Notes under the pieces: model-generated
What the model saw: the letters and a program-made list of their open reading frames with translations, nothing else
Database searches by the model: none
What the model was told of the DNA's origin: nothing
Part shown: in pieces, positions 937 to 16,119 of the stretch
Layout of the letters: every line of letters begins with the position of its first letter
Numbering within the stretch: the stretch's first letter is position 1
Assembly: GCA_029959295.1 (NCBI GenBank)
Contig: JASCOH010000005.1
Location: 62,001-126,000 of the forward strand
Direction: 5' to 3'
Length of the DNA stretch: 64,000 nt
DNA from: Flavobacteriaceae bacterium PS02334
GTDB taxonomy: Bacteria; Bacteroidota; Bacteroidia; Flavobacteriales; Flavobacteriaceae
Translations under genes and position numbers: made by a program

Positions 937-2763
937 ATGCCAATAAGTACGCAAATTCAGATTCAGATCGGAGGAGAAACATTGACGCGTTTTTCCAAGC
1001 TTGTCATCAACCAAAAGGTGCAGACACATCACCGTTTTTCACTTTTGCAACCTTTGCCAAAAGAATTCGTGAGCGAGGCTATTGACAGGGCGCAAAATTA
1101 TGTGGGACAGTCTATTAAAATCAGTATCAATCCGTCAAATATGATGACTGCGTCGCCACTGGTTTTTAACGGAATTATTACTGAAGCGCAAATGGTGAGA
1201 ACTTCCGGTGCTTCCGGAGGAATTATCATCAACGGCTACAGCCCGACAATTTTAATGGAAGGCACGCCGAATATTCGCTCTTTTACAGACAAAACGATTG
1301 CTGATATTGTAAAAGAGGTTCTTAAAAATTATTCTGAAGAAAGTTTAAAACCAGCAGTTGCTGTCCAAAAAGACGCTACTTTGCCTTATACGGTTCAATA
1401 TAGCGAAAGCGATTTTGCCTTTCTCTGCAGGCTTGCCCAAAAAAAAGGGCAATGGTTTTTTTATAACGGAGAAGAACTCCAGTTCGGAAATCCGAAATCT
1501 AAAAATTTCACATTAGAATATGGCAGAACACTGCATTCTTTCAACATAGAAATGCGCGCCAAATCACTCGGATTTGAATATTTGGGCTATGATCCTTCCA
1601 ACGGAGAAACCCAGAAAGCAAACTCTACCGAAGTGAATTACCAGCCAGAAGGCTACTCAAAAACTATTTTTGAATCTTCGAAAAAATTATTTCCAAACAA
1701 TTCTACAATGCTTTATTCGCATGCTCTGGAAGAAGGAAATTCAAGAACGCATCTTATCGACAGGGTGACAACACAGCTTCAGTCGAGAACTGCTGACATG
1801 GTTACTGCAAAAGGCGATTCTGATGAAACCGGTTTGCGAATCGGAGACGTGATTGAAATAAAAGAACCTGCTTTTTCTTTGACAGGAAATTTATTAGATG
1901 GCCTTCAAGAACAAAATTTCGGGAATTATATCATTACAGATATTATTCACATTTGTGATGAATCGGGCAATTACCACAATTCTTTTGATGCCGTTCCAGA
2001 TACTGTGGCTTCTCCTCCCTATGGAAATGTGCACAGTTTTCCAGTTGCAGAATCACAGCCAGCGACGGTTATCTCAAACGATGATCCGGCAGGTTTGGGA
2101 AGAGTCCAGGTGGCTTTTGCGTGGCAGAAAGATGCAGAAGCAAATACGCCTTGGATCAGGATGATCAATCCGCATTCTGGAGGTGGAAAAGGATTTTATT
2201 TTATTCCAGAAGTTGGTGAAGAAGTCTTGGTTGCTTTTGAAGGAGGAAATGCAGAAAAGCCATTTGTGCTTGGATCTATGTATAACGGAAGCGCTTCAAG
2301 CGGTTATGCGGCGTCAGATAATATGGTAAAGGCAATTCATACGCGTAGTGGCCATATCATCAAATTTACGGAAGACGAAAGTATCATAATTACAGACAAA
2401 AGTGGCAATGAAATTCTATTCGATACCGTTGGAAGCAATATCACTATTTCTGCGCCCCAAACTATAAATTTAAACGCAACAGACATCAATATAAATGCGA
2501 CCAACAATATTAATGTAAGCGCCGGAGCCAATCAAAATACGACTGTTGGAGTTGATAATTCTACAGCAATCGGAGGCAATCATTTTGTAAATGTTGGAGG
2601 AGAAATGACCGAAAAAATTCTTGGAGATTTAATATCGCATACTGAAAAAGGAAGGACAATCAGTACAGAAAAAGGATATGAATCTTCAAGCAATGGCAAT
2701 ATAAACAAGCATTCCCAAAAGGAAATTCAGAATAATAGTGTAGAAAAATCTCAAGCCCATTAA
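937..2763 (+). CDS. vgrG: Type VI secretion system spike protein VgrG (TssI)
   Basis: The 608-residue product has the three-part VgrG architecture. Residues about 1-360 match the phage gp27/GpD-like base. Residues about 366-450 form the gp5-like OB fold (DDPAGLGRVQVAF, then WIRM, GEEVLVAFEGG and GSMYN). Residues about 480-590 form a repetitive beta-helix needle with NI/NA repeats. VgrG trimerises at the tip of the Hcp tube and carries PAAR proteins and effectors out of the cell. The length is that of a standard VgrG with no C-terminal toxin fusion, so its cargo should be the separate downstream genes. The next gene starts 1 nt after the stop codon, which indicates a tightly linked operon. Family assignment is firm; membership in the Bacteroidota T6SSiii subtype is inferred from the organism and neighbours. 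Confidence 0.95.
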   Translation: MPISTQIQIQIGGETLTRFSKLVINQKVQTHHRFSLLQPLPKEFVSEAIDRAQNYVGQSIKISINPSNMMTASPLVFNGIITEAQMVRTSGASGGIIINGYSPTILMEGTPNIRSFTDKTIADIVKEVLKNYSEESLKPAVAVQKDATLPYTVQYSESDFAFLCRLAQKKGQWFFYNGEELQFGNPKSKNFTLEYGRTLHSFNIEMRAKSLGFEYLGYDPSNGETQKANSTEVNYQPEGYSKTIFESSKKLFPNNSTMLYSHALEEGNSRTHLIDRVTTQLQSRTADMVTAKGDSDETGLRIGDVIEIKEPAFSLTGNLLDGLQEQNFGNYIITDIIHICDESGNYHNSFDAVPDTVASPPYGNVHSFPVAESQPATVISNDDPAGLGRVQVAFAWQKDAEANTPWIRMINPHSGGGKGFYFIPEVGEEVLVAFEGGNAEKPFVLGSMYNGSASSGYAASDNMVKAIHTRSGHIIKFTEDESIIITDKSGNEILFDTVGSNITISAPQTINLNATDININATNNINVSAGANQNTTVGVDNSTAIGGNHFVNVGGEMTEKILGDLISHTEKGRTISTEKGYESSSNGNINKHSQKEIQNNSVEKSQAH

Positions 2764-2764
2764 G

Positions 2765-3964
2765 ATGAGTAAGACCACGATTGTCGGCGGAAAAATTATT
2801 GAAACCACAGGCGGTGATTTCAATATTTATGCGAAAGAGAATATCGTATACTTTGCTGCGACTACAATTACCGAAACTGGCGTTGAAAAAGGCGTGAATT
2901 TTGGCGAACCGCAGACTTATCAAAATACAGAAAAACCAGAAGTTGCCATAAAAGTTATAGACACGGTTTTTCTTCCTCTCGGAATTTTTAGCTTCAAAGG
3001 AGAAAAGGAAAACAGCAAAATCCAATTCGAAATAAAATGCAAAAAAGGAGAAGCCAGCGGACTTGTTTTTTCTGTAAAGCGTGAAGGAAGAGTCATTTTC
3101 TCAAAAAATATTGAGGAAACACTAGCTTCCGGGGCAAAGACAATTGTAGAATGGGATGGTTTTTCTGATGCTAGAATATATGACAGCACTTTTTTTGTAG
3201 ACGGAAGCTTGACGGCAGAAGTTTCAAACGGAGAAGCGCAGGCATCTGAAAAAATAGAATTTAAATATAAAGAAGTCGATTGGGTTGATCTTAAAATTGA
3301 TGATAATGAAAAGAAAGCAGAAGTCACTTTAAGAGTCAATTTAAAAGAAGCAGAGATTTCACCAACGTCTAGCAAAACATTCGAACAACTGGTTGCCTTG
3401 AGTATCGATGGTTTAAAATTATATTGGGGTCGAAATAAAACAAGATCTGTGGGAAGTTCTGTCCAAATTAATGGGGCAGATTATGAAATCATGGTCAATC
3501 CTATAAATACTGCTGAAAAATCAATGCCAGCCTTAAATGTATATTCCAAAACTGAAAATTATGGAAGATCGCGAAATTGGTGGGCGTCGAGAAAACTTTT
3601 CTTTAACGACGGTTATCACGCTTCAATGTATGCACAAATGGCATCGCCGCCGGCCGGAAGTCCCGCTTTAGAAGACGAGAAAGAATTCAAGCACACAGCC
3701 GCGCATGAAATTGGCCATGAGATTTTGCAAGAATATGGAGGTAAATATGAATATTCTTATGTCCATAAAGATTCTTCCACGCTTTTTACCCAAAGCGTAA
3801 AACCTGAAAGCACATTGCCTCCGACAGGTGAAATTGACCTGATGAAATATTATTCAGACGATCCATTTTTCTATAGAGATAGCATTGATTTTTATAACCG
3901 AAATGTCGCTCACGAAAAAGACGTTCAAGGATTATTGTGGTGCTCAAAATTAAAAACAAGATAA
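2765..3964 (+). CDS. Putative T6SS effector with C-terminal HEIGH metallopeptidase motif
   Basis: This 399-residue protein starts 1 nt after vgrG. It has no signal peptide, as expected for a T6SS cargo. The N-terminal 50 residues (TTIVGGKIIETTGGDFNIYA and the following segment to GVNFGEP) look like a separate docking module. Residues about 60-250 are rich in beta strand and resemble Ig-like domains. The C-terminal third contains HEIGHE at residues 314-319, a zincin HExxH site, preceded by HTAA. A later His (near residue 336, in YVHKD, or in the AHEKD segment near the end) could be the third ligand. I infer a zinc-dependent peptidase toxin, but I do not recognise the exact family. The neighbouring lipoprotein gene 2 nt downstream is a candidate immunity gene. 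Confidence 0.75.
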   Translation: MSKTTIVGGKIIETTGGDFNIYAKENIVYFAATTITETGVEKGVNFGEPQTYQNTEKPEVAIKVIDTVFLPLGIFSFKGEKENSKIQFEIKCKKGEASGLVFSVKREGRVIFSKNIEETLASGAKTIVEWDGFSDARIYDSTFFVDGSLTAEVSNGEAQASEKIEFKYKEVDWVDLKIDDNEKKAEVTLRVNLKEAEISPTSSKTFEQLVALSIDGLKLYWGRNKTRSVGSSVQINGADYEIMVNPINTAEKSMPALNVYSKTENYGRSRNWWASRKLFFNDGYHASMYAQMASPPAGSPALEDEKEFKHTAAHEIGHEILQEYGGKYEYSYVHKDSSTLFTQSVKPESTLPPTGEIDLMKYYSDDPFFYRDSIDFYNRNVAHEKDVQGLLWCSKLKTR

Positions 3965-3966
3965 TT

Positions 3967-4359
3967 ATGAAAGCCAATTATTTAAAAATAGCCTTGCTCT
4001 CATTTTCGATGATGCTTATTTCTTGTTTTTCAAATAAGGCAATAATTCGGCCTCATATTGTAGTCAAAGTCTATGATTCTGAATCAAAAAAGCCTTTACA
4101 GAATGTAAAATTAGAAACGACAAGTGAAAATAAAATTGAAAAAACTTCTGATAAAAATGGCATAATCGATATTCCGAAGGAAGAATTTCCGACAGGAAAC
4201 TATCATTCTTTGCCTTTAGCAGATGTAGATTTTTTATTGCACAAGGAAGAATACCAATCTGAAAAAATAAATTATATAAAATATTTCAAGCTGGATAATG
4301 ATTCAAAAAGAGAGAAGACTTATGTGTCGGATTCTATTTTCATGAAGAAAAAAAATTAA
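3967..4359 (+). CDS. Small lipoprotein, candidate immunity protein for the metallopeptidase
   Basis: The 130-residue product starts with a lipoprotein signal ending in the lipobox LISC near residue 19. The remainder (about 110 residues) has a carboxypeptidase-regulatory/transthyretin-like strand pattern: VVKVYDSESKKPLQNVKLET, then a T/SDKNGIIDI turn. I chose the ATG at 3967 rather than an in-frame ATG at 3937. The later start puts the signal peptide at the N-terminus and leaves 2 nt after the previous stop, whereas the earlier one overlaps that gene. A cell-envelope lipoprotein directly behind a putative effector is the usual place for an immunity protein. That role is inference from position; no known immunity family was recognised. 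Confidence 0.65.
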   Translation: MKANYLKIALLSFSMMLISCFSNKAIIRPHIVVKVYDSESKKPLQNVKLETTSENKIEKTSDKNGIIDIPKEEFPTGNYHSLPLADVDFLLHKEEYQSEKINYIKYFKLDNDSKREKTYVSDSIFMKKKN

Positions 4360-4367
4360 GAAAGACA

Positions 4368-5183
4368 ATGCACCGAATGAGCAACACTGTTTTTTTAAAG
4401 AGCCAATTGGCTTCAAATTATTTTGAGGTCAGAAACGAGGTCAGCATAAAAATGGGGGAAAATGATTTTCAAGCGTTTTCGACCTATGATATTTTTATGA
4501 AAAAAACACAAGATGAAAATTATGATTTATTGATTGACAGGTTGAAGTTCAGAGTCAATGGAGCAGAAATTGAGAATAAATTTTCAAAAGTTTCTGACGA
4601 TTATTTCAAATGTATTTTTCCGATAAAGTTTGAAATTGTAGAAAATCAGTTGCAGTTGGTAAATTATGCAGAAATAAATAAGCGAATAGCCGAAAAAGAC
4701 GAACAGCTGCGAAATAACATGGAAGGAGAAGGATTGGCTTATATTCGAAGCCAATTTTTAGAAAACACAAATACGCCAGAAAAATTACAGCAATTGATTC
4801 TGTCGCTTGGAATAGTAAAAATTATTAATAGTTCGTTGCAAAGATATTCGCCTGAAAAAACAATTTTTTTAGAATGGACGGTGCCAATAATCGGAAAAAC
4901 ATTTTGGAGAACGCCAAATGATTTGAGCAATCAAAATTTAGCAGGAAATTATTATTATGAAAATAACAGCCACGATAAATTGCTGGAATTTTTTAATCAA
5001 TACCGAGTTGAAAATAAATTAGAGGAAATTAAAGAAAATGTTTCGGTCAGGTCAAATTTAAAACACGAAATAAATTATGCAAACGACAGCTTTTTTTTTT
5101 CAGAATCAAAAACAGAAGTCAGCATAAAAATTGAGAATTATTTCGATTATGAAGAAACAATTACTTTAAAATCAATGATCTAA
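4368..5183 (+). CDS. Unknown protein between two T6SS effector genes
   Basis: I do not recognise this 271-residue protein. It has no signal peptide or membrane segment. It is lysine- and glutamate-rich with a mixed alpha/beta pattern, a helical stretch around residues 100-160, and aromatic motifs in the middle (WTVPIIGKTFWRTPND). An alternative in-frame start lies at 4377 (MSNTVFL). It is 8 nt after the lipoprotein gene and 20 nt before the PAAR-effector gene, so it belongs to the same transcript. A cytoplasmic protein directly upstream of a large PAAR-type effector occupies the position where adaptor or chaperone genes are often found in other T6SSs. That role is only a positional inference. 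Confidence 0.55.
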   Translation: MHRMSNTVFLKSQLASNYFEVRNEVSIKMGENDFQAFSTYDIFMKKTQDENYDLLIDRLKFRVNGAEIENKFSKVSDDYFKCIFPIKFEIVENQLQLVNYAEINKRIAEKDEQLRNNMEGEGLAYIRSQFLENTNTPEKLQQLILSLGIVKIINSSLQRYSPEKTIFLEWTVPIIGKTFWRTPNDLSNQNLAGNYYYENNSHDKLLEFFNQYRVENKLEEIKENVSVRSNLKHEINYANDSFFFSESKTEVSIKIENYFDYEETITLKSMI

Positions 5184-5203
5184 TAACGCCTAAAACTTGC
5201 ATT

Positions 5204-8200
5204 ATGGAAACAGAAACCATTGATGAGAACGAAGCAAAAGTTCAAGACAAATATGATCAAGAACAAAAAAAGCAAGCTGAAGAGCAAGAGCAGAAAGAAG
5301 CGGAAAAAAGTGAGCATGATGATAAATATTATGTAGTTCACGGGGCGACCTGTGTCTGCAACAAAGCAGAAGATCCGACCAAAGAAGCAAAAATTCAAGT
5401 TACTTCGCACAAAAAACTGGTTATCAATGACAGCGACGGAAAATTTGCTGTCACCGAAGACGATAAAACCATGGATCCGCCAGTGGCGACTTATGGCAAA
5501 TGTACGCTGAAGCCATCTTCTTCAGGAAACATGCCCTGCGCGCCAGCATTCGGACCAAAATGGGACAAAACGTATGATAAAAAAGTAGTTTCTGGAAAAA
5601 CAGTTCTAACTGAAATTTCCACGTTGCAATGTATGGTTGGCGGTGTCGTGACAATCAAAAAACACGGACAAACTAACAGCGTGGTAAAAGAACATGCTGA
5701 AAATACAGATCCGGCTGAGCAAATGCTGATCAATCCGGCGGTTCCAAAACCTGCAGTAGACCAAGCTTTTCCAGTCGTGCAAAATATTACCTTAAAGAGC
5801 ATTACGGGCAGAATTGGCTTTGTCGAAATCAGTTCTGCCAAGACAAAAGCGGTTGAAAAAATCACTATCCGAAAAAATGAAGAGTGTATTTTTGAGGCCA
5901 AATTAAAGTCAGGAAACAGCGATCTTACATCTTGGATAATTTACGAAGGAGATAAAAAATCATTCGTAAGAGAGCAAACCGGAACACAATTCCAGAATGC
6001 TTTTTTAGCGCTAGGAACTTACCGCGTTGAAGGGTATGGAAAACCAAAAAGATCAGATTTTAGCGACGGACTGCATGATAAAAATTATCCTGACTGTTCT
6101 ATTGATGTGGAAGTCGTGGTCAATAAGCTTGATGGAACTGCATTGGGAACCAAAGGCGGCGACACATTTACCAGAAAAGACAAAGCTAAAGCAAATCGCT
6201 TGCGTCAAAATTTTCCGGCTGTTTTTGAAGCCAAATTCCTTTTGCCTCCAAATGCGGAAGAAACGGAAAAAATTAAAATTTTTGCTAAAGATGAAAGCGG
6301 AAATATATTGACTGACGGCGTTCAATCGGGAAATTCTTATACGTTTACGCCAACGAATACAGCTTCGCAATATACCGTAATTGCAGAATATACAACTGAA
6401 GAGGGCGAAATCCAAAGCCAGTCATTTTCCGGGAAAACCGAGAGTTTGTCTGTTTTAAGCATAACAAATGCTGCCGAGGTAATTCGTCCAGAAACCGCAA
6501 TGAAATTTTCGGTTGGAACGACGCAATACAATACAGCCAATAACATTACTTCCGACGAAGGAAAACTGATAAAATGGAATCTTAATGGAAAGCCTGTCGG
6601 AACTGGCTCTTCGATTAATTTGCCTGGCTCAAATTTTTTAAAGCACGGAAATTATGTGGTGGAAGCTTATGTTAGCTCGAGCAATGCCTTTGGCTCAGGA
6701 TCAAAAGATGAAGCAGACGATTGGCGCTTTTCGGTAAAAAACAATGACGTCGTAAGTTTTACGCAATCGGCACAGCCAAAAGTCGGAAAGAAATTTACGC
6801 TGCGAGTTGATAAATTTGTAATGCCGCCAAATGAAGATGAAAAAGTGGTTTGGGAAGTTTCTGGAAAACAGCTTGTTGCAAATGCTATCGATGTCAAGCT
6901 TGTCACTGCTGGAAAACATACCGTAATTTGTAAAATCAACCGTCAGCCTGGCGTGAAGCAAATCGTAGACGTGAAGCAAGCCGAACTTGTGGATGTAGTG
7001 TTTACAGATAAAAACGGCGTCAAGATGCAAAAGGCAAGCTGGGGACATAAAGCGAGCATTTATATAACGCACAAAGAACTTTTGGGCGAAGATTTTAAAG
7101 TTCAAATTATTGATGATTCCAGCGGGAAGGCTGTTTTTGAAAGTGCGGTCAAAAAATTTGATGGTGCATTGATTCCGGTTTCTTTTGACGGAAAATTTAA
7201 GGCAAATGCGGCGAATCATACGAAGTTTCACATTAAGATTGACGCGCCTGACCTTATCGTAAAAAATGAAGAGCAGAAATTTCCGAAAGCGGGAAGTTTT
7301 ACAATTACCGACCAAAGAAGAGTATTCGAAGCCTTGCTTGGCGAAGAAAACGCTTCAAAAAAACACCTGTCGGTCGATTATGATAAAGTAAGCTGGTTTT
7401 ATGCCCACACCACCGGAATTCCTGCAAAAGAAGAACTGACCGTTGAGGTTTGGGAATCAGTTTTGGGCTTTGATAATGACTTAAAATATAAAGCAAAAGT
7501 CAAAGTCGATGAATCGGGAGTTTTAAAATGCGAAATAAAATGGAGCAAGATACCGAAGGTAAAAAAAACAAGAGTTGTCTATATCCAAGTAAAAGATAAA
7601 GACGGAAAAACGCTTTATGACGCTGATGGTGATGTGAAAGAAGCCACTGTTAGCTTGTTATTTACGCCAACGGCTGTTAAATTGGTAGAAAATAAAAGCG
7701 CGGTTGTCGTTGGAACAAGTCCTGCCGTAAAAAAAGGAGGCTGTCCGAATTGCCAAAAACCAGTAACTGTTGCTGAATTAAAGCAAATATTTACAGAAGC
7801 AGACAATGCAACTTTGACCAAAGCAGCTGAATATTATACCAAATACATGAAAGAGCTTGGCATGGACACTTGCTGGAATAAAGCTCACTTTTTTGCACAA
7901 GCTGTCGTAGAATCAGGATTGAAATTGCATGTAAAAAGCGGTGAAAATTTCAACTGGTATTATGAAGGACTTATAACAACATTTGGTGCCTTTAAAACAG
8001 TAGAAGGACGAAAAAAAGCAGCTTTGTGGGGAAGACCAGTTCTTAAGCCTTCAACTCCGGGCGTTTCTGCAGAAAATCAAAAAAATATTGCAAATTGGGC
8101 TTATTCGCCAACGTCTGACAAAGGAAAAGAAATTGGAAATACCCAGGCAAATGATGGATGGAATTTTCGAGGCAAGGGATTGGTTCAGCTAACTGGGCGA

Positions 8201-9055
8201 ACGGCTTACGAATATGCAAATACTTACACTTTAAAAGAAGGATCAAATATTGTAAATAATCCAGATTTGGTTTTAACTGACGTAGGAGTTGCAGTATTGT
8301 CATCGATGGCTTTCTTTAAATGGAAGAACATCAATGCTTTAACAAATGGAAAAATGGATACCAAGCCGATTTCCATAAAAGTAGGAAAGGAAGTTGACGG
8401 AAGCTATGCTAAAAAGCAAAAAGCATTTAAAGATTCTACATCAAAAGTATTTGAAGTAGACAGTTGCGTGTATGGAAAAGCAGAACCTATCGAAGGAAAA
8501 GCACCTTGGATGCCATTTGCGCATAAAGAAATCGGTCAGAAAGCAATTCTTGGTAAAGAAAAAAACAATCCGAGAATTTCTGAATATTTCAACAGTTCTT
8601 CTAATGGAAAAGGGCTTACTGAAGAAACAAATTGGTGCGGTGCATTTGTCAGCTGGTGTTTCGCACAAGCGGGTTACTCGCCACCGCCACTTTCTTGCAG
8701 GGCTGCAATGTGGCAATTTTGGAAACAAGACAAGCCGATTTATGGCTCTGCCGCAGTGATTGATTGGAATGACAATCAAACGGCAAAACCAAACGGAAAA
8801 GATCAAGCAGTAGGAGGCGATGGGCATATCACTTTTGTAATCGGAATTAGTGAAGACGGTAATCATTATTACTGTGTCGGTGGCAATCAAGGAGGTTCAA
8901 AAGGTGCCAGAACAGTTAAAATTTCGAAATATAGCAAGAGCGATATCGACTGGTTTGTGATTCCGCCAAATTACACGCCTGTCGCAGATGAATATAAACT
9001 TAAAATCATGAAAAGTGAGGCTGATGTTGACAAAGCATCAACTACAAGAACCTAA
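5204..9055 (+). CDS. PAAR-like (DUF4280) T6SS effector with GH19 and NlpC/P60-type domains
   Basis: The 1283-residue protein has four regions. Residues 1-43 are a charged, probably coiled-coil segment. Residues about 44-160 are a DUF4280 PAAR-like spike cap with several cysteines (CVCNKAED, CTLKPS, LQCMVGG). Residues about 190-830 are a string of Ig-like beta domains. Residues about 847-1090 resemble glycoside hydrolase family 19: HFFAQAVVES supplies a candidate catalytic Glu903, and NFRGKGLVQLTGR matches the family signature near residue 985. Residues about 1105-1265 form a papain-like NlpC/P60/CHAP domain: NWCGAFVSWCF gives Cys1145 and GDGHITFV gives His1208. The protein would cap VgrG and deliver two peptidoglycan-cutting activities, one on glycan strands and one on peptides, into a rival's periplasm. 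Domain calls are from motifs; delivery is inferred from context. Confidence 0.88.
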   Translation: METETIDENEAKVQDKYDQEQKKQAEEQEQKEAEKSEHDDKYYVVHGATCVCNKAEDPTKEAKIQVTSHKKLVINDSDGKFAVTEDDKTMDPPVATYGKCTLKPSSSGNMPCAPAFGPKWDKTYDKKVVSGKTVLTEISTLQCMVGGVVTIKKHGQTNSVVKEHAENTDPAEQMLINPAVPKPAVDQAFPVVQNITLKSITGRIGFVEISSAKTKAVEKITIRKNEECIFEAKLKSGNSDLTSWIIYEGDKKSFVREQTGTQFQNAFLALGTYRVEGYGKPKRSDFSDGLHDKNYPDCSIDVEVVVNKLDGTALGTKGGDTFTRKDKAKANRLRQNFPAVFEAKFLLPPNAEETEKIKIFAKDESGNILTDGVQSGNSYTFTPTNTASQYTVIAEYTTEEGEIQSQSFSGKTESLSVLSITNAAEVIRPETAMKFSVGTTQYNTANNITSDEGKLIKWNLNGKPVGTGSSINLPGSNFLKHGNYVVEAYVSSSNAFGSGSKDEADDWRFSVKNNDVVSFTQSAQPKVGKKFTLRVDKFVMPPNEDEKVVWEVSGKQLVANAIDVKLVTAGKHTVICKINRQPGVKQIVDVKQAELVDVVFTDKNGVKMQKASWGHKASIYITHKELLGEDFKVQIIDDSSGKAVFESAVKKFDGALIPVSFDGKFKANAANHTKFHIKIDAPDLIVKNEEQKFPKAGSFTITDQRRVFEALLGEENASKKHLSVDYDKVSWFYAHTTGIPAKEELTVEVWESVLGFDNDLKYKAKVKVDESGVLKCEIKWSKIPKVKKTRVVYIQVKDKDGKTLYDADGDVKEATVSLLFTPTAVKLVENKSAVVVGTSPAVKKGGCPNCQKPVTVAELKQIFTEADNATLTKAAEYYTKYMKELGMDTCWNKAHFFAQAVVESGLKLHVKSGENFNWYYEGLITTFGAFKTVEGRKKAALWGRPVLKPSTPGVSAENQKNIANWAYSPTSDKGKEIGNTQANDGWNFRGKGLVQLTGRTAYEYANTYTLKEGSNIVNNPDLVLTDVGVAVLSSMAFFKWKNINALTNGKMDTKPISIKVGKEVDGSYAKKQKAFKDSTSKVFEVDSCVYGKAEPIEGKAPWMPFAHKEIGQKAILGKEKNNPRISEYFNSSSNGKGLTEETNWCGAFVSWCFAQAGYSPPPLSCRAAMWQFWKQDKPIYGSAAVIDWNDNQTAKPNGKDQAVGGDGHITFVIGISEDGNHYYCVGGNQGGSKGARTVKISKYSKSDIDWFVIPPNYTPVADEYKLKIMKSEADVDKASTTRT

Positions 9056-9068
9056 ACAGTCAATTCTT

Positions 9069-10316
9069 ATGAAATTAAACATGCTTATTTTCTCTTTGTT
9101 CTTGGTCGGATTTTCTTCCTGCCAGAAAAAAGATAATGACCAAACCGAACAATCAAACAATGAAATTATAATGGAAAATAAAGAAATTGAGCCGTTATTG
9201 AAAAAGCAGATCGAAGCCGGATATGCTGCTGAAAGATCTGAAACAGATTATCAAAATTATGATTTGGCAGAAAATGATTTGAATGCTTCCAACGAAATTT
9301 TAAAAAGTTATTTGTTAAGCAATGGTTATAAATCTCCGCCAAATGAAGAATTCGGAAAAAGGATAGAAGGTATTTTTGGAAGAAAGCTGGATTTCAGTTC
9401 TGATAAAAAAACGGTTTTTGTAAGTTTTACTTCGCCTTGCGAAAAGGAATTGAAGTTTCTAAAAAATACAGATTTAGATTATGTGAATTACATCAGCAAG
9501 GACGGAAATTTTCTTTCAGAATTGTTTTTTATTCCAGAAATTCTAGATTATCAAAAAATGTTTCCGGAAATCGCCACTTTTGAAAATGACCTGCAAGAAG
9601 AAAAAGACGGTATTAAAATCTATAAATGGAACTCTAAAACCGATTTGTCTCGAACAAGAACACAAAATTTAAGAACGGTTTTGGCTAGAAATAAATTTTT
9701 GTTTAATGATAGCAAAGCTGATTTGGAATGGTTGCTCAGCAGTGACAAAGATTTCTTGAAAATGCTTGTTTTTGCTTATGGATATGATACGAACGAGAAA
9801 ATAAACAAGCTTGTTTTGACTGATTTTTACAATAAATATGACAACTCAACTCCAAAGCAGACCCAAAAAATCGGAGAACTTTTCTTTGCAAAAGACTGCG
9901 ACGGAAATTTGAAAGTTAGAAAAGGATTGCTTGATTTTGTCCAAAATAATACGACAGGATCTGACAATCGATTTATTTATGCGCTAGCAAATTATGCTTC
10001 GGTTTTATTTGACGGAGATATTGATGAGGTTTTCAATGAAGGCCAAGATCCGTCGAAGAAATTTACAAAAGCAGATAAGGCAAAAATCATAGCTTATATT
10101 GCCAGCGTTGAAAGTCCGGCGACAGAAAAATACAAAACAGGAAATGCAGCAGTTTGGAATAATGAAGCTTCAGTAATTTATAATATTGCTGCTTCCCAAC
10201 CAGAAATTATTTCAATTATAAAGAAAAATAATTATTACAATATTCCGAATTTGAAAGCAATTGTGGATTCTAGCGAAAAAGAAGCCGAAGCTTATAAAAT
10301 GCACATGCAAGACTAA
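9069..10316 (+). CDS. Lipoprotein, candidate immunity protein for the cell-wall-degrading effector
   Basis: The product is a 415-residue lipoprotein with signal MKLNMLIFSLFLVGFSSC and a cysteine at residue 18, followed by a polar linker. I chose the ATG at 9069, which gives this clean signal and lies 13 nt after the effector stop. An in-frame ATG at 9015 would overlap the effector and bury the signal. The mature part is mainly alpha-helical with no recognised domain. Its first half contains FVSFTSPCEKELKFL and its second half a helical-repeat-like stretch. A periplasm-facing lipoprotein directly after a peptidoglycan hydrolase effector is the typical immunity arrangement. Function is inferred from position. 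A strong terminator follows. Confidence 0.7.
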   Translation: MKLNMLIFSLFLVGFSSCQKKDNDQTEQSNNEIIMENKEIEPLLKKQIEAGYAAERSETDYQNYDLAENDLNASNEILKSYLLSNGYKSPPNEEFGKRIEGIFGRKLDFSSDKKTVFVSFTSPCEKELKFLKNTDLDYVNYISKDGNFLSELFFIPEILDYQKMFPEIATFENDLQEEKDGIKIYKWNSKTDLSRTRTQNLRTVLARNKFLFNDSKADLEWLLSSDKDFLKMLVFAYGYDTNEKINKLVLTDFYNKYDNSTPKQTQKIGELFFAKDCDGNLKVRKGLLDFVQNNTTGSDNRFIYALANYASVLFDGDIDEVFNEGQDPSKKFTKADKAKIIAYIASVESPATEKYKTGNAAVWNNEASVIYNIAASQPEIISIIKKNNYYNIPNLKAIVDSSEKEAEAYKMHMQD

Positions 10317-10380: not shown

Positions 10381-11697
10381 TTAGTATCTGTAATATTCAG
10401 GTTTAAATGGACCTTGAACTTCAACACCGATGTAAGCTGCTTGGTCATCTCTTAATGTTTCCAACTCAACTCCCAATTTAGCCAAGTGCAAAGCAGCTAC
10501 TTTTTCATCCAAATGTTTTGGCAACATATAAACGTCGTTATTGTAAGCCGCGCTGTTTTTCCACAATTCAATTTGAGCCAAAGTTTGGTTTGTAAACGAG
10601 TTACTCATTACAAAACTTGGGTGACCAGTTGCACAACCTAAGTTTACCAAACGACCTTCAGCCAAAATGATAATGTCATTTCCGTTGATTGTATATTTAT
10701 CAACCTGAGGTTTGATTTCGATTTTTGAAGCACCGTGGTTTTTGTTCAACCAAGCCATGTCTATTTCATTGTCAAAGTGACCGATGTTGCAAACAACAGT
10801 TTTGTCTTTCATTTTCTCGAAGTGAGAGCCAAGAACAATATCTTTGTTTCCAGTAGTCGTGATGATGATATCCGCGGTAGCAATAACTGTGTCTAATCTT
10901 TTCACTTCAAATCCGTCCATTGCAGCCTGAAGCGCACAAATCGGATCAATTTCAGTCACAGTTACAATAGAACCAGCACCTCTGAAAGAAGCTGCAGTTC
11001 CTTTTCCAACGTCACCATAGCCACAAACGATTACTCTTTTTCCAGCCAACATCAAGTCAGTTGCGCGACGAACCGCATCAACTGCAGATTCTTTACAACC
11101 ATATTTGTTATCAAATTTCGATTTAGTAACCGAGTCATTTACGTTAATTGCAGGCATTGGCAACGTTCCTGCTTTTACTCTTTCATAAAGTCTGTGAACG
11201 CCAGTAGTCGTTTCTTCAGAAAGACCTTTGATTCCAGCAACTAATTCAGGGTAACGGTCGATAACCATATTTGTCAAATCACCACCATCATCCAAAATCA
11301 TGTTTAACGGCTGACGATCTTCGCCAAAGAACAAAGTTTGCTCGATACACCAGTCAAAAGATTCTTCATCAAGACCTTTCCAAGCATAAACCTGGATTCC
11401 AGCAGCAGCAATTGCAGCAGCAGCCTGATCTTGCGTAGAGAAAATGTTGCAAGAAGACCAAGTAACTTCAGCTCCAAGAGCGATTAAAGTCTCGATCAAA
11501 ACCGCAGTTTGAATTGTCATGTGAAGACAACCTGCAATTCTAGCACCTTTTAACGGCTGCTCGTCTTTATATTCTGCACGAAGTGCCATTAAACCTGGCA
11601 TTTCAGCTTCCGCCAATTCAATTTCTTTTCTTCCCCAAGCTGCAAGAGAAATATCTTTCACTTTGTAAGCCACAAAAGGTAATGTCGTTGTACTCAT
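10381..11697 (-). CDS. ahcY: Adenosylhomocysteinase (S-adenosylhomocysteine hydrolase)
   Basis: AhcY reversibly hydrolyses S-adenosylhomocysteine to adenosine and homocysteine, removing the inhibitory by-product of methylation and feeding methionine recycling. The 438-residue protein has the usual length. Visible family features are the substrate-domain segment [19 protein letters not shown], the NAD-binding Rossmann motif [14 protein letters not shown], the NKYGCKES segment, and the C-terminal KPEYYRY that closes the active site of the neighbouring subunit. NAD stays bound as an internal cofactor. The gene is monocistronic, with a TAnnTTTG-type -7 box (reverse complement of 11732-11739) about 35 nt upstream and a shared terminator downstream. 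No SAH or SAM riboswitch is evident in the leader. Confidence 0.98.
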
Positions 11698-13428: not shown

Positions 13429-14041
13429 TTTTTTTTTAGATGCCTATAAAAATGCCACGACCTTTGATATCGTCATGGAAGCGATTGTGTTTTTCTTCGG
13501 AATCATAAGCGTTTATTATGCCAAAAAAGAAAATATTTTAGTGTATCCAACGGGTATAGTCGCAACAATAATCACGGTTTACATTCTTTTTAAAGCAGGG
13601 TTTTTGGCAGAAATGACCTTGAATATTTATTTTTCAATCATGAGCATTTATGGATGGATAAATTGGTCGCGGGTAAAAGAAAATGAGCACGTTTTTAAGA
13701 TTTCTAGAACGAATGATAAGCAGAAAATCATTGGAATCTTGCTATTTTTTCTTACTATTGTAGTAACATATTGCATTTATCATTTATTTGGGAAAGAAAT
13801 ACTTCCTCGAAATTATATTGATATCGGCTTGACAGGTATTTTCTTTACAGGAATGTGGTACATGGCGCTGAAGAAAATCGAAAACTGGACACTTTGGATC
13901 GTCGGAGACATTATCGCCGTTCCCTTGTATGCTGATCGAGGACTGGGAATGCTATCGTTGCAGTATGTGTTTTTTACAATTTTAGCAATATTAGCCTACT
14001 TGGAATGGAGGAAAATCTTAAGCAACAACCAACAGATATAA
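13421..14041 (+). CDS. pnuC: Nicotinamide riboside transporter PnuC
   Basis: The 206-residue membrane protein has about seven hydrophobic segments. It contains PnuC-type features: YPTGIVATI, MSIYGWINW, and a C-terminal WIVGDIIAVPLY segment followed by YVFFTILAILAYLEW. PnuC lets nicotinamide riboside cross the inner membrane by facilitated diffusion, and a cytoplasmic kinase traps it as NMN. The next gene begins within the last 37 nt of this one and starts with a NadR-type kinase domain, which fits that transport-and-trap pairing. Confidence 0.93.
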   Translation: MIDFFLDAYKNATTFDIVMEAIVFFFGIISVYYAKKENILVYPTGIVATIITVYILFKAGFLAEMTLNIYFSIMSIYGWINWSRVKENEHVFKISRTNDKQKIIGILLFFLTIVVTYCIYHLFGKEILPRNYIDIGLTGIFFTGMWYMALKKIENWTLWIVGDIIAVPLYADRGLGMLSLQYVFFTILAILAYLEWRKILSNNQQI

Positions 14042-16119
14042 TTAAAATAACGTTGTATGGTCCAGAATCTACTGGAAAAACAACTTTAGCAAAACAATTA
14101 GCGCAACATTTTCAAACCAATTGGATTGAAGAATTTGCCCGTGATTATTTGCAAAAAAAATGGGATGATTCCCAAGCTATTTGTGCTCCTGAAGATTTGC
14201 TTCCTATTGCAATCGGGCAAGTGAAACTTGAAAATAAAGCACTAAAATCTGCAAATAAGTTTCTTTTTTGCGACACAAATTTAATGTGTACCAAAGTTTT
14301 TTCTGAAATCTATTACGGTTTTTGTGATTCTAGCTTGGACAAAGCGGCTAGAAAACATAAGTATGATTTGTTTTTCCTGACGGATATCGATGTTCCTTTT
14401 GAAAAAGATGACCTTCGCGACAAGCCGGAAGAAAGAGAAATGCTGATTCAAAAATTTGAAAAAGCACTGATTGAAAATAACAAACCGTACATAAAACTTT
14501 CAGGAAACCAGGAAGAAAGACTGGAAAAAGCAATTCAATTTACTGAAGATTTGGTTAAGGCAAAAAGCTTAGGTTTCACTTCGTATGATTTTGTACAAAT
14601 GGTGGAACATAACGTTTCTGTTGATTCTGTAGAAAAACATTTGGACATTTTCAAACGTGGCATTCCAAAAACAATTTTGGAAAAACCAGCTTCCATTCAA
14701 AACGGAATTTTGCCTCTTTCAGAGGATGAAGCGACTTATTATTCCAATTTATTTGACTCTAAAAAAGACAATTTAAAACTTCAAAAATTTGTTCCGGCTT
14801 CTGGCGCAGCGAGCAGAATGTTCAAATTTTTAAATGAATTTCTGCATGATTTTAAAGTGACGGAAGAAAGTCTAAACGCCTACATAAACAGAAAAAATGC
14901 GAACGCAATGACTGTTTTTCAAATCGGCCTTGAAAAATTTCCTTTCTATGAAGAAGTTTTAGGGTATGTAAAAACGCATTTTGATGATTATGAAGCGCAG
15001 ACAAAAAGCGGCAAGATTTATTTATTCGTAAAGGCCCTGCTGTCTTCGCACCATTTTAATTATGCCTGCAAGCCAAAGGGAATTTTGCCCTTTCATTTGT
15101 ATGCAGATCACACGGCAACACCAATTGAAGAGCATTTGAACGAAAGTGCTTTTTATGCTTCTTCCAACGGAATTTCGCATCTTCACTTCACTATTTCCGA
15201 AGAACACAGAACTTCTTTTGAAAAGATAATTAGTGATGTAAAAGAAAAAGTCGAGACAAAATCGGGGACAAAAATCAATGTCAATTATTCTTATCAGCAC
15301 AAATCGACTGATACTTTATCGGCGACTTTAGATAATAATGCTTTTCGAGATGACAATGGAAAATTGTTTTTCCGTCCGGGCGGGCATGGCGCTTTGATTG
15401 AGAATTTGAATGATTTGAATGCAGATATTATCTTTATAAAAAACATCGATAACGTTATCCAGAATCATATCCAAGCGATTGCTTTGTATAAAAAAGCATT
15501 GGCCGGAATTTTATTAGAATACCAAGAAAAGATTTTCAACTTCCTAAAAAATCTGTCTCAAGAAAATGTCAAAAAAGAAATAGTCGACGAAGTTGTAGAT
15601 TTTATAAAAACGAGACTTCAGACGAATATTAGTTCTGATTTTCAAAAATATACGAAGGAAAGCAAGATTGAATATTTGCAAGAATTGCTAAATCGTCCGA
15701 TTCGTGTCTGCGGGATGGTGAAAAATGAAGGAGAACCTGGCGGAGGACCGTTTTGGGTAAGAGATTGCAAAGGAAATCTTTCGCTGCAGATTGTAGAATC
15801 GTCGCAAGTTGATCTTTCAAATGCAGAACAGGCGAAAATATTATCAAAATCTACACATTTTAATCCGGTTGATTTGGTTTGCGGTACGAAAAATTACCAG
15901 AACCAAAAGTTTGATCTGTCACAATTTATTGATCAAAATAGCGGGTTTTTAGTAGAGAAAAATAAAAATGGAAAAGAATTGATTGCTTACGAATTGCCTG
16001 GATTATGGAATGGCGCGATGGCAAATTGGATTACGATTTTTGTCGAAGTTCCATTAATTACCTTCAATCCGGTGAAAACGGTAAATGATTTATTAAAACC
16101 GGCGCACCAGCCACAATAA
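14005..16119 (+). CDS. NadR-type ribosylnicotinamide kinase domain fused to DUF4301
   Basis: The 704-residue protein joins two modules in one open frame. Residues 1-185 are a P-loop kinase with GPESTGKT at 19-26, DTNLMCTKVF (Walker B-like) and a FLTDIDVPFEKDDLRDKPEER segment typical of the NadR kinase domain, which phosphorylates nicotinamide riboside. Residues about 190-704 match DUF4301: KFVPASGAASRMFKFLNEF, GILPFHLYADH, FRPGGHGALIENLNDL and CGMVKNEGEPGGGPFWV. DUF4301 has nucleotidyl- or sugar-phosphate-transferase-like motifs but no function known to me. No NMN adenylyltransferase HIGH motif is visible, so this is not a full NadR. The ATG at 14005 overlaps pnuC by 37 nt. The kinase role is supported by pnuC; the reason for the fusion is unknown. 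Confidence 0.85.
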   Translation: MEENLKQQPTDIIKITLYGPESTGKTTLAKQLAQHFQTNWIEEFARDYLQKKWDDSQAICAPEDLLPIAIGQVKLENKALKSANKFLFCDTNLMCTKVFSEIYYGFCDSSLDKAARKHKYDLFFLTDIDVPFEKDDLRDKPEEREMLIQKFEKALIENNKPYIKLSGNQEERLEKAIQFTEDLVKAKSLGFTSYDFVQMVEHNVSVDSVEKHLDIFKRGIPKTILEKPASIQNGILPLSEDEATYYSNLFDSKKDNLKLQKFVPASGAASRMFKFLNEFLHDFKVTEESLNAYINRKNANAMTVFQIGLEKFPFYEEVLGYVKTHFDDYEAQTKSGKIYLFVKALLSSHHFNYACKPKGILPFHLYADHTATPIEEHLNESAFYASSNGISHLHFTISEEHRTSFEKIISDVKEKVETKSGTKINVNYSYQHKSTDTLSATLDNNAFRDDNGKLFFRPGGHGALIENLNDLNADIIFIKNIDNVIQNHIQAIALYKKALAGILLEYQEKIFNFLKNLSQENVKKEIVDEVVDFIKTRLQTNISSDFQKYTKESKIEYLQELLNRPIRVCGMVKNEGEPGGGPFWVRDCKGNLSLQIVESSQVDLSNAEQAKILSKSTHFNPVDLVCGTKNYQNQKFDLSQFIDQNSGFLVEKNKNGKELIAYELPGLWNGAMANWITIFVEVPLITFNPVKTVNDLLKPAHQPQ

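Follow-up and report, generated by a model that had tools for sequence, protein, structure and literature searches.

The analysed window is a stretch of 64,000 nucleotides from Flavobacteriaceae bacterium PS02334 (assembly GCA_029959295.1, contig JASCOH010000005.1, positions 62,001 to 126,000 of the forward strand). A vgrG operon in it encodes a 1283-residue protein that joins a DUF4280 PAAR-like tip, a long stalk and two predicted wall-enzyme domains, of GH19 and CHAP type, in a single chain (Table 1). This combination is a real observation, and the protein is very probably an antibacterial effector of the Bacteroidota-type type VI secretion system (T6SS), T6SS-iii, with two predicted wall-cutting enzymes and a probable immunity lipoprotein encoded beside it. 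Few studies of Bacteroidota T6SS-iii effectors turned up in the literature searched.

Table 1. Features of the effector and its operon in the window; positions are window coordinates.
Feature	Position	Strand	Residues	Evidence
Effector	5204..9055	+	1283 amino acids	ATG start, no internal stop; open reading frame (ORF) analysis
DUF4280 (PF14107) PAAR-like tip	5333..5671	+	44-156	Pfam
Stalk	5747..7723	+	~182-840	No Pfam match
GH19-type glycosidase	7727..8479	+	842-1092; Glu903, Glu914, Thr997; Cys847, Cys850, Cys890, Cys1088	Homology, profiles, conservation
CHAP/TIGR02594 cysteine-hydrolase domain	8504..8956	+	1101-1251; Cys1145, His1208, Asn1228	Pfam, TIGR02594, PHROG, conservation
VgrG spike protein	937..2763	+		Phage_base_V 1.6e-23, Phage_GPD 5e-21; TIGR01646 vgr_GE 126.5 bits, over cut-off 121.8
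Possible other effector of the vgrG operon	2765..3964	+		HEIGH zincin-type motif at residue 314; putative role
Small lipoprotein-like gene, candidate immunity of 2765..3964	3967..4359	+		Internal ATG (ORF list: GTG 3937); putative role, from position
Probable tip adaptor/chaperone	4368..5183	+	271 residues	Putative role, from position
Candidate immunity lipoprotein	9069..10316	+		ATG 9069 (ORF list: upstream GTG 9015); GFSSC lipobox-like start, by eye

The effector frame was located by sequence search at C55:67204-71052 of the source assembly. Judged by its profile score, the DUF4280 domain is certain (68.5 bits against a curated cut-off of 26.3, E 9.1e-19), and a profile search of solved structures gave a single weak match for it (0.11). 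An earlier note on this DNA, made from the sequence, had described a single frame with a DUF4280 cap and an immunoglobulin-like stalk; the intact frame and the cap stand, and a Pfam scan of the window effector matched no family in the stalk and hence none that would identify it as immunoglobulin-like. Tip and stalk together share 37-46% identity with proteins in loci L045, L046 and L043. By eye, the N-terminus (METET...) lacks a signal-peptide-like start.

The GH19 region of the window protein matched the structure of the SPN1S endolysin (4ok7) in phmmer at E 2e-10. A profile of the GH19 domains of 12 relatives (A1) retrieved 4ok7 at E 5.9e-23 and GH19 chitinase structures at 8e-4 to 9e-3, so the domain is homologous to GH19 enzymes and endolysins of solved structure. 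The region also matches PHROG endolysin family 181 (E 4e-31), and relative L080 passes the Pfam GH19 cut-off with 31.2 bits. The GH19 catalytic triad is given as Glu-Glu-Ser/Thr in the available text of PMC11253643, according to which both catalytic glutamates are conserved in 4ok7; the window protein has Glu903, Glu914 and Thr997. For the numbering of the SPN1S glutamates, a literature search yielded no confirming paper among the matches listed. In an alignment of 38 tabulated effectors, described below, Glu903 and Thr997 occur in all 38 and Glu914 in 34.

NlpC/P60-type enzymes carry a Cys-His motif plus a polar third residue. The C-terminal region of the window protein matches PHROG 1259, annotated as baseplate hub subunit and tail lysozyme, at E 6e-16, and Cys1145, His1208 and Asn1228 are kept in 9/9 aligned CHAP members. 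The candidate Glu903 of a GH19-type domain and the Cys1145/His1208 pair of an NlpC/P60-like domain, both named in the earlier note along with the statement that the two motifs are intact, are therefore borne out by profile matches and conservation.

Several results weigh against reading this protein as one of a family of two-enzyme wall-degrading effectors with dedicated immunity. The window protein stays under the curated Pfam cut-offs for GH19 (20.3 bits, cut-off 25.5) and CHAP (24.3 bits, cut-off 26) and under that of TIGR02594 (67.7 bits, cut-off 70.55; E 1e-18), and among solved structures the CHAP profile retrieved nothing relevant, its sole matches being two isomerase sequences at 0.38. 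Among the relatives, L038 has no Pfam domain at E 0.01, its domains being placed by local alignment and an iterated profile. The second domain belongs to a cluster without library match in 10/38 effectors and is DUF5675, a domain of unknown function, in 2/38. Relatives of the lipoprotein also follow non-CHAP effectors, such as L054 and L055 (32% identity, near full length). The domain searches proposed in the earlier note thus had a divided outcome: DUF4280 lies over its cut-off, and GH19, CHAP and TIGR02594 lie just under theirs, yet are supported by other comparisons. We regard the GH19 identity as settled because of the 4ok7 and PHROG 181 matches, and the CHAP identity as settled because of the PHROG 1259 match.

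A signature of four cysteines marks the delivered GH19 module (window 7742-8467). Cys847, Cys850 and Cys890 are present in 38/38 effector modules and Cys1088 in 37/38. When ten GH19 proteins of the stand-alone kind were aligned, none had the first three cysteines and one had the fourth; most of the ten lack the whole N-terminal stretch that bears the first two cysteines. Delivered GH19 modules may thus have a metal site or disulphides of their own.

Immediately upstream of the window, a 20 kb stretch (L041) contains T6SS-iii genes, namely TssC (2e-238), TssN (2e-91), two TssD/Hcp (2e-49 and 1e-45), GPW_gp25 (8e-8) and a ClpV-type AAA protein; TssB (VipA) and TssF were detected below cut-off only, and 2/10 scanned genes had no match. 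Together with the VgrG gene in the same operon, this links the effector to a T6SS-iii. The 271-residue gene preceding the effector is by its position probably a tip adaptor, although its product reached the cut-off of no Pfam family and matched nothing in NCBIfam or PHROG. An iterated profile found a relative of it upstream on the same strand in 21/38 effector loci, the window included, only downstream in 5/38, and nowhere in the covered stretch of 12/38, so that a rule placing an adaptor gene upstream of every effector was rejected. This adaptor-like family adjoins many DUF4280 genes. Downstream of the effector lies one lipoprotein gene, followed by an opposite-strand gene (10381-11697).

A search of 395 genomes from the order at E <= 1e-15 gave 41 matches to the GH19 module, in 32 genomes; in a sample of 395 genomes from across the phylum, which partly coincides with the first, 11 genomes had it at E <= 1e-20. 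The full-length effector was matched in 23/100 relatives. Three of the 41 order-level matches (G069 contig C37) and three phylum-level matches outside the order are not in the sample. We collected 54 GH19 ORFs with distinct ends, of which 37 were kept and L050 was added, giving a table of 38 effectors in which GH19 is followed by a C-terminal extension; L050 falls outside the 54, probably because it ends in the same residues as L010. Selection for this extension is built into the table, because GH19 proteins without a second domain were dropped: the ten stand-alone proteins (L017, L018, L020, L021 with its longer copy L089, L022, L026, L071, L073, L074, L088) and the long proteins L075 and L078, with GH19 at the extreme C-terminal end. 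Also left out were L037 (a near duplicate of L036/L038), L040_7116 (short partial second domain) and the broken or truncated copies L065, L076 and L079. The shorter stretches L002, L005, L007, L009, L010, L014, L029 and L033 were replaced by longer versions of the same loci.

A search with the GH19-CHAP part matched six named loci (L035-L040), from Flavobacterium covae, three Chryseobacterium, Hoylesella loescheii and Prevotella jejuni, the closest named relative being F. covae with 68% identity. DUF4280 lies in the same chain in 8/38 effectors and in the gene directly upstream in 21/38, so that 29/38 carry or adjoin it; some of the remaining 9/38 are cut by contig ends or are orphan cassettes. 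The in-chain order DUF4280-GH19-CHAP occurs in 5/38, namely in the window, two Chryseobacterium effectors (L036, L038), L059 and L060. In these four relatives DUF4280 was detected by a locally iterated profile, and Pfam does not report it in L038 and L059. The combination is therefore not unique to the window protein. In L035 of F. covae (3355-5577), one ORF runs without a stop from a non-GH19 phage-baseplate-like region (PHROG 196, 4928) through CHAP into an immunity-like stretch.

Second domains were clustered by single linkage at E 1e-4 and the clusters named from scanned members. Nine clusters resulted: M23 with 13 effectors, CHAP with nine, a CHAP-like singleton (L083), YkuD with three, DUF5675 with two, and four without library match that hold the ten effectors mentioned above (3, 3, 3 and 1; 6/10 scanned). 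A cluster of wall-enzyme type (M23, CHAP or YkuD, with at least one Pfam-matched member) holds the second domain of 26/38, which speaks for a wall-degrading effector. The CHAP of L059, like that of the window, is below the Pfam cut-off. By eye, the ten unmatched second domains show HxxxxxxD...HxH-like or H...SxGC-like motifs, which is a lead. Further effectors with this kind of DUF4280 tip or stalk carry different lytic domains: L046 has a phage-lysozyme domain (3e-23), and PHROG endolysin family 90 is matched by L042:9481-10710 (1e-21) and by L045 (6e-11), where M23 follows.

Like GH19 domains are found with unlike second domains, and the reverse. The GH19 of the window effector is 66% identical to that of L042:1955-3793, an orphan cassette in the same genome, yet the second domain is CHAP in the former and YkuD in the latter; the second domain of L072 is 0.75/0.63 similar to those of L066/L077, with a GH19 similarity of just 0.19/0.18. 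Exchange at the joint between GH19 and the C-terminal domain (hereafter tail) would yield both patterns. The genome of the window has a second DUF4280-stalk gene, within which contig C33 ends (L043:1-2270). The first 756 bases of C33 are 98.4% identical to those of contig C8 (L042), which over 11,111 bases holds orphan cassettes in tandem: remnants of stalks, enzymes in other pairings than that of the window effector, and genes for lipoproteins. Two C8 cassettes share 92.7% identity over 492 bases (6576-7067 and 3365-3852), ending ~20 bases from the GH19 start, and their GH19 domains are only 30% identical; a similar repeat (87.2% over 375 bases) exists in L045, from another genome. The repeats of 92.7-98.4% DNA identity in C8 and C33 suggest exchange borders, and C8 may lie behind the C33 DUF4280 gene, a candidate arrangement beyond what the assembly shows. 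The array resembles the orphan-cassette design of Rhs and contact-dependent inhibition (CDI) systems. Because related toxins pair such enzymes variously, the window effector belongs to a swap-and-combine arsenal, as one of many pairings of GH19 with a second domain, and is not a one-off.

The proposed mechanism is well supported by inference. The DUF4280 domain would seat on the VgrG spike, aided by the putative upstream adaptor, and contraction would carry the effector into the periplasm of a neighbour, where GH19 is predicted to cut the glycan strands of peptidoglycan and CHAP a peptide or amide bond; with both cuts the wall would fail. The lipoprotein encoded downstream would shield kin in the periplasm. 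Profile matches, conserved residues and the gene neighbourhood support the earlier proposal that one delivered protein could attack glycan and peptide bonds.

The lipoprotein gene 9069-10316 probably encodes the immunity protein. A relative lies directly downstream of 9/9 effectors of the CHAP cluster (the window and the other eight), with identities to the window lipoprotein of 52% in L044, 47% in L035 and 34-36% in Chryseobacterium. Its searches returned no solved-structure relative (best 0.054), no Pfam or PHROG match, and in NCBIfam only TrsH at 19.9 of 150 bits, far below cut-off, and PRK07523.1 at 0.15. On which enzyme it would block, close and distant comparisons disagree.

In one account, which we consider possible though doubtful, GH19 is mainly a wall-piercing tool like a phage tail-spike lysozyme, while the toxic action lies in the C-terminal domain, at which the single immunity gene is directed. 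The window effector and the L042 cassette fit it, being 66% identical in GH19, yet related neither in their second domains nor in the lipoproteins encoded downstream. A comparison of 31 dereplicated effectors (465 pairs) gave 11 pairs whose immunity proteins are > 0.35 similar; in every one of them the second domains reach a similarity of 0.60 or more, at GH19 similarities from 0.18 to 0.73. Second domains this similar occur in 12 pairs, 11 of which exceed 0.35 in immunity. Where GH19 is > 0.45 and the tail <= 0.2 similar, 0/28 pairs exceed an immunity similarity of 0.30 and 6/28 exceed 0.15. At longer range the association turns around: immunity follows GH19 when the tail is controlled for (partial rank r 0.22, p 0.001) and does not follow the tail when GH19 is (r 0.025, p 0.30), and immunity similarities > 0.15 are enriched in pairs sharing GH19 without the tail (16/63, p 0.008), unlike the reverse class (3/37, p 0.73). 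The type IV GH19 effector TfcB is moreover described as bactericidal in the available text of PMC11253643. A clean rule tying immunity to the C-terminal domain thus finds support among closely similar pairs and is contradicted by the whole-set statistics, and this conflict is why we keep C-terminal-domain immunity as a rival only.

A bipartite lipoprotein with one part for each enzyme is a further possibility, which we hold to be improbable. L061 compared with L062/L063, which have similar GH19 and different second domains, shows immunity C-terminal halves 0.29/0.27 similar and N-terminal halves at background, and over the set the similarity of the C-terminal half rises with that of GH19 (r 0.22, p 0.002) and with that of the tail (r 0.10, p 0.03). 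The N-terminal half has no significant link to either (p 0.12 and 0.10), and the C-terminal part common to L066/L072/L077 is also shared with L042, L084 and L085 at GH19 similarities of only 0.11-0.25, which makes the pattern inconsistent overall despite the suggestive pairs. Far less credible still is a phage-derived or housekeeping wall hydrolase in place of a T6SS effector. Both enzyme regions do match phage endolysin and tail-lysozyme families in PHROG, and against this stand the DUF4280 tip, VgrG, the adaptor-like gene and the adjacent T6SS-iii genes, as well as the cysteines, three of which are in none of the ten aligned stand-alone GH19 proteins and the fourth of which is in one; on operon context and cysteine signature this explanation was rejected. 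The T6SS-iii effector with two wall enzymes and a lipoprotein immunity remains the preferred reading. As a speculative extension of it, there may be a Bacteroidota T6SS-iii effector class with DUF4280 tips, glycan and peptide modules shuffled independently, orphan cassettes kept behind one anchor gene, and a single immunity protein mainly against the C-terminal module, so that GH19 would open the wall without meeting any immunity and would potentiate the second enzyme.

The closest published systems are the WHIX double-blade effectors, TseP and Tae17, and bifunctional wall-degrading T6SS effectors are thus already published for Proteobacteria. WHIX effectors such as Awe1 carry two mostly peptidoglycan-targeting toxic domains in one cargo, among them Glycosyl hydrolase 19, other glycosidases, NlpC/P60, M23 and M15; different immunity proteins stand beside different toxic domains and two are required (PMC12135965, available text). 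Their WHIX domain separates the blades, whereas the window effector has a DUF4280 tip and stalk with both blades in tandem at the C-terminal end, is linked to a T6SS-iii, and has one downstream lipoprotein gene. The hosts named in the available text are proteobacterial orders, e.g. Enterobacterales and Aeromonadales, and the main text of PMC12135965 contains no word beginning with Bacteroid-. A motif scan, run without a WHIX profile, found no WHxxxH in the 1283 residues of the window effector, which is accordingly not counted as a WHIX protein.

TseP of Aeromonas dhakensis is a single T6SS effector with amidase and lysozyme activities; it interacts with the carrier VgrG2, its amidase is zinc-dependent, and the abstract names no DUF4280 tip, in contrast to the CHAP and DUF4280 domains of the window protein (PMC11893102, available text). 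Tae17 of Acinetobacter baumannii likewise attacks a glycan and an amide bond of peptidoglycan, combining a lytic transglycosylase with an amidase as a non-covalent VgrG17 cargo, unlike the window effector (PMC11796386, available text). TfcB, a type IV effector of Stenotrophomonas, and the SPN1S endolysin (4ok7) share with the window GH19 the fold and the paired catalytic glutamates. TfcB bears a type IV signal and a single catalytic domain and lacks the third Ser/Thr, whereas the window protein has Thr997, and the available text describes neither DUF4280 nor CHAP in it (PMC11253643). DUF4280 PAAR-like proteins are known as a spike-tip family and named as possible effectors in the available texts of PMC8651086, PMC11854122 and PMC5349215; the first two describe no GH19-CHAP fusion such as that of the window, and the word peptidoglycan does not occur in PMC8651086. 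Among the matches listed in the literature searches, titles and abstract openings contained no Bacteroidota DUF4280-GH19 effector, a weak negative because the literature covered lacks most subscription papers and preprints. The suggestion that the combination may be new is therefore only partly right, given the published bifunctional effectors and the four further effectors with the same chain; what is new, beside the cysteine signature, is the combinatorial pairing and the cassette array. A recognisable, exchangeable two-enzyme format would allow many unnamed effectors and immunity genes to be annotated, would give a direct comparison with proteobacterial double-blade effectors, and would make testable why two wall enzymes travel together and whether one immunity gene suffices.

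Elsewhere in the operon, the product of 2765-3964, for which the Pfam and NCBIfam scans gave no family over cut-off, may be a metalloprotease effector, for which the small lipoprotein-like gene at 3967-4359 (a weak SpaA match at 0.0086, below cut-off) would be the candidate immunity gene. Further along the window, 14005-16119 is one ORF of 704 residues, the first part of which looks by eye like a NadR-type ATPase, and the second part unrelated to it.

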